Below are positions 5,243-25,805 of a stretch of DNA of 64,000 bases, in pieces. Position 1 is the first letter of the stretch. Each line of letters starts with the position of its first letter. The position numbers and the translations under genes were made by a program. The stretch lies in the NCBI GenBank assembly GCA_037965595.1, contig CP150183.1, positions 2,356,001 to 2,420,000 on the forward strand. The letters run 5' to 3'. The notes beneath the pieces were generated by a model that saw only the letters and a list, made by a program, of their open reading frames with translations, ran no database searches and had not been told where the DNA came from. The stretch comes from Alkalihalobacillus sp. FSL W8-0930. Its GTDB lineage: Bacteria > Bacillota > Bacilli > Bacillales > Bacillaceae_D.

Positions 5243-6034
5243 ATGTCTACAAATCATCAAGCTCTTAAACAGTATGATCGCAACAAGTACCGAACTCCTG
5301 ATGGATATACATCTGATATTGCTGTATTCACTATAGTCTCAACGGAACAACTTGCATATAAGCCTCCTAAAATGGAGCTTGCTCTCATGTTGATTCAGCG
5401 GGCTGCAACCAATGCAGAAGGCGATGCAAACATTGAAGCGAACAAATGGGCCTTGCCTGGTGGCTTTGTTCAAGAATCAGAGACGGCATTTGAAGCAGCA
5501 AAACGAGAACTCCATGAGGAAACAAACATTCGAGATATTCATCTAAAGCATTTTGGGGTATATGATCAACCAGGACGTGATCCCCGGGGATGGATTATCT
5601 CTAATGCTCATTATGCCATCGTTTCAGAGAACAAGGTCTCCATGCGAAAAGCAAATGATGATGCGGCCGAGGTGCAACTTTTCTCCATGGCTGAAGTGCA
5701 AAAGCTCTCTCAAGAGTCAAAATTAGCTTTTGATCATGATGAGATCATTCAAGCAGCAATTCAGCAAATAAAAATGGACTTGTTACAAACGACTGTAGCA
5801 AAAGAATTTTTACCGGATACCTTTACCTTTTCTGAGTTACAAGCAGTGCTACTTACTGTAACGGACGATCCTGCAATTACAAGCAACCAGTCATTTATTA
5901 GGAAAATTAAATCATTGCCTTTTCTTGAAGCCGTTCCTGGACAAACAACACAACGTACATCAAAGACCCCTACTCAGCTTTACACCTTTGTTGAAATGGA
6001 CGTGCTTAAACCCATTTACACGGCCAAATATTAA
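5243..6034 (+). CDS. nrtR: NrtR-type Nudix regulator of NAD metabolism
   Basis: 263 residues with an N-terminal Nudix domain and a C-terminal winged-helix-like region, the layout of NrtR. The Nudix box G74-x5-E80-x7-R88-E89-L-x-E92-E93 is complete except that the final Gly is Asn95. The NrtR-specific YDQPGRDPRGW, which contacts ADP-ribose, is at about 107-117. NrtR proteins repress NAD genes and release DNA on binding ADP-ribose. The intact acidic box means hydrolytic activity may be retained. AGGAGG precedes the ATG. It is the first gene of an operon with pncA and pncB. Confidence 0.85.
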   Translation: MSTNHQALKQYDRNKYRTPDGYTSDIAVFTIVSTEQLAYKPPKMELALMLIQRAATNAEGDANIEANKWALPGGFVQESETAFEAAKRELHEETNIRDIHLKHFGVYDQPGRDPRGWIISNAHYAIVSENKVSMRKANDDAAEVQLFSMAEVQKLSQESKLAFDHDEIIQAAIQQIKMDLLQTTVAKEFLPDTFTFSELQAVLLTVTDDPAITSNQSFIRKIKSLPFLEAVPGQTTQRTSKTPTQLYTFVEMDVLKPIYTAKY

Positions 6035-6050
6035 TGATGGAGGGATTTCT

Positions 6051-6596
6051 ATGAAAGCTTTGCTAAATATCGATTATACATTTGATTTTGTTGATACAGA
6101 TGGATTACTGACATGTGGAAAGCCTGGTCAAGACATTGAACAGAAGATCACAACTATTACCAATGAGTTTATAACGAATAACTACTATGTTGTATTTGCT
6201 GTTGATTTACATAAAGAAAAGGACCCACTACATCCTGAATCTTCACTTTTTCCTCCTCATAACATCGAAGGGACAAAAGGACGAGAGCTCTACGGGAAAT
6301 TAAATGATGTGTATCAATCAACTAAACATGAAGACAATGTATATTGGATGGATAAAACAAGATACAGTGCCTTTGCTGGTACGGATCTCGAACTACGATT
6401 ACGCGAACGCCAAATTACAGAGCTCCACTTAGTGGGAGTGTGTACGGATATATGTATCCTGCATACAGCCGTTGATGCCTACAACAAAGGATTTAAAATC
6501 GTCATTCATGAACACGCTGTTGCAAGCTTTAACGCTGCAGGACATACATGGGCACTTGAACATTTTAGGGGATCACTTGGCGCAACCATTGTATAA
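6051..6596 (+). CDS. pncA: Nicotinamidase PncA
   Basis: 181-residue cysteine hydrolase that converts nicotinamide to nicotinate plus ammonia in NAD salvage. The catalytic triad is visible as D8, K102 and C131 (in GVCTDICILHTA), with metal ligands D52, H54 (VDLH) and H70 (FPPHN). It closely resembles B. subtilis PncA by eye. The start at 6051 has GGAGGG upstream; a longer frame reaches back into nrtR but lacks support. Only 16 bases separate it from nrtR. Confidence 0.93.
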   Translation: MKALLNIDYTFDFVDTDGLLTCGKPGQDIEQKITTITNEFITNNYYVVFAVDLHKEKDPLHPESSLFPPHNIEGTKGRELYGKLNDVYQSTKHEDNVYWMDKTRYSAFAGTDLELRLRERQITELHLVGVCTDICILHTAVDAYNKGFKIVIHEHAVASFNAAGHTWALEHFRGSLGATIV

Positions 6597-6621
6597 ATGA
6601 GAACTTTAGGAGGTTTCATAT

Positions 6622-24677: not shown

Positions 24678-24706
24678 AAAAGCCTCTTTTGAAGAGGCTT
24701 TTTTGT
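24678..24706 (+). terminator. Terminator of HAD phosphatase gene
   Basis: AAAAGCCTCTT (24678-24688) and AAGAGGCTTTT (24692-24702) form an 11-bp stem with a very short loop, followed by T residues. Confidence 0.9.
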
Positions 24707-24732: not shown

Positions 24733-25580
24733 GGTTCTTGATTGTGAGCTGGTTCTTCTTGGTCCCTACTGAGCCCGGCTTGGTATCGGGCTCTTTCTTC
24801 TTAGTATTGAGGGGAGCTCCTTGGTACAGGCGCCGCGCTTCTTGCTATCAGCCCTCTCTTCTTGATTGGTCCCCCGCTTTTTCTTAATAGGAATAGCGTT
24901 CTCCTTAGTAAGTGCCTCTGGTTCTTGGTCTTTCTGCCCTTCTCCTTGGTTCCGTTCCAAACGTTCTTACTAAAAATCAAAAATGTTCATTTTTTTCCTT
25001 ATTTCATTGAAGGTTCTTGGTTGTGGCCTGGTTCTTCTTGGTACGCGTTGAGCCCGACTTGGTATCGGGCTCTTTCTTCTTAGTATCGAAGGCTGGTTCT
25101 TGTTAATTGCGCCGCGCTTCTTACTATCGGCCCTCTCTTCTTGATTGGTCCCCCGCTTTTTCTTGATAGGAATAGCGTTCTCCTTAGTAAGGGCCTCTGG
25201 TTCTTTGTCTTTCTGACCTTCTCCTTGGTTCCGTCCCAAACGTTCTTACTAAAAATCAAAAATATTCATTTTTTTCCTTATGTCAGTGAAGGTTCTTGGT
25301 TTTGAGCTGGTTCTTCTTGGTCCCTGTTGCCCCCGTCTTGGTATCAGGCTCTTTCTTCTTAGTATCGAAGGCTGGTTCTTGTTAATTGCGCCGCGCTTCT
25401 TGCTATAGACCCTCTCTTCTTAGTAGGACCCCCGCTTTTTCTTGATAGAAACAGCGTTCTTATTGGTAATGCTCCTCAAATCTTGGTTGTTCTGCCCTTC
25501 TCCTTGGTACCGCCCCTAACGTTCTTACTAAAATCACCTTTTCCTCTTCTCAGTGAAGGTTCTTGATTTTTGAGGGGATC
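24733..25580. repeat. Nested tandem repeat array: ~279-bp units of 21-bp motifs
   Basis: Units start at 24733, 25012 and 25291 (279 bp apart), with a third unit of 268 bp and a partial fourth from 25559. Units 1 and 2 are nearly identical by eye; unit 3 is more diverged. Inside each unit a CTTNNT motif, usually preceded by TTCTT or TTCTC, recurs about twelve times with spacing of 20, 21 or 22 bp (unit 2: 25016, 25037, 25058, 25079, 25099, 25120, 25140, 25162, 25183, 25203, 25224, 25245). Each of the first two ends in an AT-rich stretch of about 40 bp. A GAGCCCG...CGGGCTC stem occurs in units 1 and 2. The array is framed by convergent terminators and appears non-coding. Confidence 0.9.
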
Positions 25581-25611: not shown

Positions 25612-25653
25612 AAAAACGCTCCACTCCTCCTTAACCGGAAGAGTGGAGCGTTT
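25612..25653 (-). terminator. Terminator downstream of tRNA-Arg
   Basis: AACGCTCCACTC (25615-25626) and GAGTGGAGCGTT (25641-25652) form a perfect 12-bp stem; the minus strand continues into TTTTTG. Confidence 0.88.
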
Positions 25654-25659
25654 ATCGAA

Positions 25660-25731
25660 CGCGCCTAGTAGGACTCGAACCTACAACGCAAGAATCGGAA
25701 TCTTGAATGATATCCCTTTCACCATAGGCGC
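25660..25731 (-). tRNA. tRNA-Arg (anticodon CCG)
   Basis: Minus-strand cloverleaf: acceptor GCGCCTA/TAGGCGC, D stem GTGA/TCAT with a GG-containing loop, anticodon stem CAAGA/TCTTG with loop TTCCGAT, T arm GTAGG-TTCGAGT-CCTAC. Anticodon CCG reads Arg CGG. Discriminator G; CCA is not encoded. Single gene followed by its own terminator. Confidence 0.92.
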
Positions 25732-25805
25732 ATGGTAGTTTTTGCGACATGAATAAGTATAGCTTAAAGGGAGGATTCAGTCAATCATTTCCTCCCATCG
25801 CATCA

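Follow-up and report, generated by a model that had tools for sequence, protein, structure and literature searches.

A helically phased array of direct repeats, located in a 64,000-nucleotide stretch (the window) of the chromosome of Alkalihalobacillus sp. FSL W8-0930, is best read, with a probability of roughly 0.6 and on the basis of sequence comparisons, as a stand-alone member of a set of dispersed tracks that would act as cognate binding sites for NERD-A, a chromosomally encoded protein carrying the NERD domain. At least 26 loci built on the same CTTGSTA motif (motif A), the window array being one of them, are present in this genome (G000, genus Alkalicoccobacillus). Arrays and NERD genes together point to an unrecognised two-part chromosome system.

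The window array is composed of three tandem units (Table 1), for which Tandem Repeats Finder (TRF) gives a period of 279, 2.9 copies and 87% matches, in agreement with the ~279-bp units proposed in an earlier, sequence-only reading of this DNA. A PSSM/DP chain scan follows the motifs of each unit at intervals of 21, 21, 21, 20, 21, 20, 22, 21, 20, 21 and 21 bp, identical in all three units; the twelve CTTNNT positions that the sequence-only reading had listed for the first unit are exactly those of the chain, and its estimate of approximately 36 motifs on one face of the helix corresponds to the 3 x 12 phased sites found. The 21-bp spacing that it had put forward was correct to a first approximation, lag 21 being the top autocorrelation peak over 24733-25580 (z 6.7), followed by lags 83 and 41, from which a lattice of ~20.75-20.8 bp, not exactly 21, is derived. 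Within the same interval CTTNNT occurs 58 times, only 36 of which fall on the lattice. At the flanks, the proposed tRNA-Arg is recovered by tRNA prediction, while the two proposed terminators are terminator-like hairpins as read by eye. A boundary element, AAAAATG-NN-CATTTTT beside CCTTAT, which gives a ribosome site followed by ATG when read on the opposite strand, recurs in the genus (L026, L027, L034, L037, L042), yet is missing from many arrays.

Table 1. Features of the phased array and its surroundings (window positions), and copies of the array-associated insertion element (genome positions).
Feature	Position	Strand	Details and source
Whole phased array	24733..25533	+	3 tandem 279-bp units, 36 CTTGSTA-like motifs; TRF, autocorrelation, motif chains
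Unit 1	24737..24972	+	12 motifs; motif chains
Boundary inverted repeat AAAAATGTTCATTTTT, then CCTTAT	24979..24994	.	minus strand = AATAAGGA..ATG; sequence, recurs at other array loci
Unit 2	25016..25251	+	12 motifs; motif chains
Boundary inverted repeat, imperfect variant AAAAATATTCATTTTT	25258..25273	.	read from sequence
Unit 3	25295..25530	+	12 motifs, without boundary palindrome behind; motif chains
Terminator-like hairpin past upstream HAD-like gene (named by eye)	24680..24704	+	left edge; read by eye
Terminator-like hairpin past minus-strand tRNA-Arg	25614..25651	-	right edge; read by eye
tRNA-Arg	25659-25732	-	tRNA prediction in window
IS3-like copies in G000	318742-320125, 371012-372396, 2907321-2908705, 3387563-3388770, 3768268-3769652		L029, L030, L199, L028, L214

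There is next to no likelihood that the arrays represent a coding remnant, a structured RNA or an assembly artefact. A structured RNA, one of the roles initially considered, finds no fold signal in 24 units (mean z -0.47 for one strand and +0.17 for the other; the alignment folds with an energy of ~0), and the Rfam matches in the window are tRNAs only. The idea of a decayed 7-residue coding repeat meets with frames that are closed in nearly all units: none of the 15 units of one spacing class is open in any frame, of the nine units of a second class a single one is open, with one open frame per strand, and indels between orthologous arrays of G000 and G001 are mostly of 1-2 nt. What can be said for coding is the short ORF preceded by a ribosome-binding site (RBS) that begins with ATG at unit boundaries of some loci; in the window, AAGGA precedes an ATG on the minus strand of units 1 and 2, so that the statement that open frames here lack ribosome sites has to be amended, and the frame stops after six codons. 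As for an artefact, orthologous arrays are present in the assembly of another species. A 61-aa boundary ORF from another array has no relative in viral contigs, and the array sequence has no plasmid match; the motif pattern is matched in 66 viral-contig stretches, most with a single match.

When the window array is compared by BLASTN with its own genome (3,885,014 bp, one contig), a check that the sequence-only reading had advised, clear paralogs are found at ~3.34 and 3.36 Mb, plus weak ones at other places. A motif-pair pattern yields 64 forward and 38 reverse matches (100 of the 102 places listed), while the reversed control gives 1 and 2. A PSSM chain scan yields 34 chains grouped into 26 loci, a minimum, as arrays without a perfect motif pair would be missed; a few isolated pairs are not arrays or lie outside the chain-scanned stretches. 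Summed over chains, motif-A arrays occupy ~9.2 kb (0.24%) of the genome, and 25 of the 26 loci are not beside NERD-A. Their distribution is far from uniform: the half of the chromosome nearer to ori holds 23 of 26 (one-sided p=4e-5), and 22 of 26 share a common replichore polarity (p=5e-4), with 9/10 loci on the minus strand in the right arm and 13/16 on the plus strand in the left arm (Fisher p=7.8e-4). The origin side was assigned from a DnaA-like ORF at the contig start, recognised by eye, and the terminus side from the GC skew, which flips sign from the sample at 1.850-1.854 Mb to the one at 1.900-1.904 Mb; in the left arm, one sample (3.315-3.335 Mb) departs from the pattern. For 56 arrays defined by chains (54 of them from the genus), the flanking ORFs are, as judged by eye, of mixed orientation; since ORFs inside arrays were masked, this orientation alone is no proof that the arrays are intergenic.

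Constraint on the motifs is visible in nine hand-chosen orthologous pairs of arrays from G000 and G001, in which motif columns are 89.2% identical (1021/1145) versus 76.8% for spacers (1750/2280; p=2e-19), the flanks, genes included, being 89.8% identical (3900/4342). One spacing template is fitted by 15 units of G000, against a mean of 2.1 and a maximum of 15 for 30 permuted orders, and a second, one base different, by nine; the first and second templates are fitted by 8 and 9 units in G001, 5 and 0 in G003, 1 and 0 in G004, and by none in G002. Spacers of distant G000 units are 36.8% identical in register versus 28.4% out of register, and this excess, together with the common template, suggests that the units are old relatives whose spacing was kept while their letters drifted. 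The initial notion of an older short repeat, the whole unit of which was duplicated later, is supported, and inheritance alone, without selection, could explain part of the common spacing pattern. A test for phase memory within chains came out against it, the n-step variance exceeding that of shuffles (z up to 5.6, five genomes pooled), with the caveat that this test was contaminated by chains crossing unit boundaries.

Three in-phase motifs are found in all five genomes of the genus (15 to 520 matches, reversed control 0) and in none of 36 other family members. Among 397 genomes of the order, strong exceptions are G074 and G267, from one other genus (124 and 186 matches); two further genomes have 1-2 matches, and the reversed control gives 1-4 matches in each of seven genomes. 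Named contigs with the motif pattern include those of A. gibsonii and A. porphyridii. In the latter (G003), which holds the 520 three-motif matches, several arrays stop at contig ends (L039, L044, L048), and for this reason arrays probably break assemblies and are undercounted in drafts. Outside the genus, among the matches listed (80 loci of at least 117 stretches), spacing is mostly exactly 21 bp; CTTGGTA at exact 21/63-bp spacing occurs in Bacteroidetes and spirochaetes (L145, L154, L104 and others), and such exact-spacing matches are probably coding repeats.

The association of arrays with NERD genes is evident in this genome. The NERD-A gene (3342866-3343861, 331 aa) has a large sister array directly 5' of it, and at least five NERD paralogs adjoin arrays, with five different motifs. 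Two paralogs near 3.32-3.39 Mb (35-40% identity to NERD-A) have arrays with TATCGCAT and TTTTGMGCAY, and two at 1.23 and 1.31 Mb have arrays with CTTCGTCGATTCC and GTTGTATT, the motif-B and motif-C arrays resting on reading and pattern counts. Across the whole genome, TATCGCAT occurs as an array twice, next to NERD-B and, solo, at 3179 kb, on the plus strand in both cases. In the 12% of the genome that was searched for solo arrays of paralogs C, D and E, GTCGATTCC-type arrays lie beside their gene at 1234 kb, apart from it at 3337 kb and, for a further one, at 371 kb. Solo arrays thus amount to one for B and 1-2 for D, with none seen for C and E in that 12%, and since they are so few for the other four paralogs, motif A is the only one for which a role across the chromosome is evident. 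A comparable arrangement exists in G085, from another family: a NERD gene there adjoins a GCGAGCATAA array, of which a single sister is located at 781 kb, in the same orientation. Two array families share one locus in L030 (5700-5985; G000 ~370.7-371.0 kb), where a GTCGATTCC-type array abuts CTTGGTA-type motifs. In L026, two adjacent small membrane proteins (6251-6601 and 5950-6264) lie opposite NERD-A across the sister array, and look by eye like members of the small multidrug resistance type.

Of 298 genomes sampled from the order, 228 have NERD-A homologs (E<=1e-10). The surroundings of NERD genes were surveyed in a non-random sample, composed of the best homolog of 30 genomes plus 20 chosen stretches, that contains 51 genes (47 distinct, orthologs included) and spans 31 genomes and 15 families. 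A 20-21-bp periodic stretch lies within 450 bp of 44 of the 47 distinct genes versus 10 of 62 far blocks, located at least 0.9 kb away (score >6, p=4e-17); with a stricter score of >8 the figures are 40/47 and 4/62, and three distinct genes score 6 or less. The strongest lag, of any between 8 and 61, is 20, 21, 40, 41 or 42 in 41 of 49 flanks (the 47 distinct genes plus L392 and L393) and 61 in three more; far blocks peak at those lags in 12 of 62 cases and otherwise mainly at multiples of three, the period of coding DNA, which explains why some of them score high. The array is 5' of the gene in 39 of 51 cases (35 of 47 distinct) and 3' in 12.

Array motifs mostly differ from one gene to the next, as seen in eleven flanks that were compared: nearly the same motif accompanies L307 and L314 (proteins 89% identical), and the motifs of L328 and L335 (53%) are partly alike. 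Over 44 proteins, array similarity is no more than weakly correlated with protein identity (rho 0.07) in a rough comparison whose flanks took in genes, and strong flank likeness is seen only among close relatives. G074 and G267 provide a prediction that held. Both were first picked by CTTGCTA alone, at listed places away from their NERD loci, so that CTTGCTA was expected at the NERD loci themselves; a protein search finds a single NERD homolog in each (E<=1e-4), 26% identical to NERD-A, and CTTGCTA repeats adjoin both (26 copies in L392, only 3 in L393). Along with G000, these genomes indicate that, in two families, the genome-dispersed motif is also the NERD-adjacent motif.

All eight proteins scanned, including the five G000 paralogs, match PF08378 (NERD) with 62.6-83.8 bits versus a cut-off of 22.1. 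In a set of 44 proteins, from which seven of the 51 had first been left out (four duplicates and three with internal stops), E47, D81 and K96 are conserved in 44/44 and E94 in 43/44, residues that we take to be catalytic and of the PD-(D/E)XK type; in the G074 and G267 proteins, D-x-K replaces E-x-K as judged by eye. Cysteines 240, 243, 259 and 262, kept in 43 or 44 of the 44 proteins, and weak Pfam matches indicate a putative zinc ribbon, while a weak HTH_17 match in one protein and reading of the sequences suggest a C-terminus that may be HTH-like. The search of solved structures with the NERD family profile gave no convincing match (best E 0.073). Searches with NERD-A by tblastn were negative for both plasmids (72,556 records, E<=1e-8) and phages (50,697 records, E<=1e-5), and viral contigs likewise yielded no relative. 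Five proteins compared with anti-phage defence models (PADLOC/NCBIfam) give no full-length match, but weak and partial ones to PglW, MAD6 and unnamed candidates, those of NCBIfam falling far below cut-offs.

Also found at the arrays is a 1.4-kb IS3-like element (family assigned by eye), whose five G000 copies at E<=1e-10 are all situated inside phased arrays or abut them, even though motif-A arrays take up only 0.24% of the genome. Homologous IS loci across the order have a strong phased flank (>8) at 8/30 versus 1/142 control blocks, in a test that took the better of two sides against one-sided controls; the sole G000 locus among the 30, which is located in a known array, reaches no more than 6.7. 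In G109 (C1:1148815-1150851; L384), a homologous IS lies ~200 bp from a NERD gene, where an array would be expected.

The conserved PD-(D/E)XK-type residues, the zinc ligands and the paralog-specific motifs make the NERD protein the natural reader of the arrays. As the repeats are direct and asymmetric and recur every two turns, their sites should follow one another head to tail along one side of the helix. The C-terminal zinc-ribbon/HTH-like part would read CTTGSTA, and head-to-tail sites every two helical turns would put all protein copies on one face, so that a polar filament could form on each 12-site unit and bring the nuclease-fold NERD domain to the array's place in the chromosome; the paralogs would act likewise on their own motifs. 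We infer binding of NERD proteins to array motifs, filament formation, nuclease activity and role alike. The initial guess that the array binds proteins or organises the chromosome has gained in weight, the arrays being dispersed, ori-proximal and polarised, with motifs better conserved than spacers and a link to a nuclease-fold family. The most likely role lies at the level of the chromosome, and would consist of anchoring, marking or processing ori-proximal DNA in a replication-polarised manner.

Different explanations have to be weighed against NERD-read chromosomal tracks. NERD and array could constitute a selfish pair of no benefit to the host, in which nuclease action at the arrays or close by would help them to be copied, to expand and to spread, and such a pair would be in keeping with motifs that differ between paralogs, solo copies in G000 and G085, conserved nuclease-type residues, IS elements also present in arrays, and a variable unit number that reaches 520 three-motif matches in one species. 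This is nevertheless unlikely, in view of the absence of NERD-A matches in the plasmid and phage collections, the syntenic retention of arrays between species with motif conservation, and the replichore polarity and ori bias. It is distinctly doubtful, too, that the adjacent array is an autoregulatory operator through which the NERD protein represses its own gene, with solo arrays as titrating decoys: the 5' position of most adjacent arrays and the suitability of phased direct repeats for cooperative repression agree with it, but 12 adjacent arrays are on the 3' side, and ~25 solo loci, many with 12 sites and with a common polarity, are more than an operator needs. For motif A, ori bias and polarity favour chromosome anchoring or marking over both autoregulation and a selfish pair.

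The large distance that separates most solo arrays from NERD genes could also mean that an unrelated nucleoid protein binds them and that NERD genes are merely near; this is highly improbable given adjacency for 44 of 47 genes from 15 families with motifs that differ between paralogs, and CTTGCTA beside the NERD genes of G074 and G267. Returning to the NERD-read tracks, a wider form of this proposal stands at about even odds. It holds that orthogonal NERD-array pairs would exist order-wide, several per genome and each with its own motif, and that Alkalicoccobacillus would have expanded one of them genome-wide into ori-proximal, replication-polarised, 12-site filament-nucleation tracks comparable to a dispersed centromere or self-mark.

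Known systems share some of these traits. Plasmid-origin iterons are direct repeats at approximately two helical turns beside the gene for their binding protein, as NERD arrays are; unlike iterons, NERD arrays occupy many loci of one chromosome, and the eight NERD proteins scanned have no Rep domain. In ParR-parC, one superhelical turn corresponds to ~12 dimers. RacA is not known to us to be a nuclease or to have an array of its own sites next to its gene. ParR-parC, the type II plasmid partition system of, for example, pSK41, is similar in that a protein sits on directly repeated 20-bp sites (PMC9426499), and its repeats, which vary from one family to another, determine incompatibility. The NERD system differs in being chromosomal, with no NERD-A match in the plasmid records and arrays at many loci, and its proteins, unlike ParR, have no ribbon-helix-helix Pfam match (eight scanned). 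In B. subtilis, RacA is described in the available text as an HTH protein that anchors the chromosome via ram sites, which, like the arrays, are numerous, dense near the origin and also present elsewhere; unlike for NERD arrays, no helically phased 12-site arrays are described there for ram sites (PMC6593407).

The NERD domain itself (PF08378) is common to NERD-A, SmdA, PglW/MAD6 and a NERD protein of pXO1. Unlike NERD-A, SmdA is a membrane cell-division factor without several conserved NERD residues, and its authors state that to their knowledge the importance of the NERD domain had until then gone unstudied in any bacterial protein (PMC9040797). PglW and MAD6 differ from NERD-A as long kinases, matched over part of their length only. 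NERD is listed among putative CRISPR auxiliary genes in a figure legend (PMC10910872). In the open-access literature, no link between NERD genes and phased arrays was found by titles and the starts of abstracts, nor was a paper on the function or DNA partner of NERD-A homologs.

If the proposal is true, the partner has escaped notice since an array, taken singly, could pass for a private tandem repeat. The arrays would then provide a target for NERD proteins and explain a class of intergenic repeats of Bacillales, and the order would supply many orthogonal protein-motif pairs.
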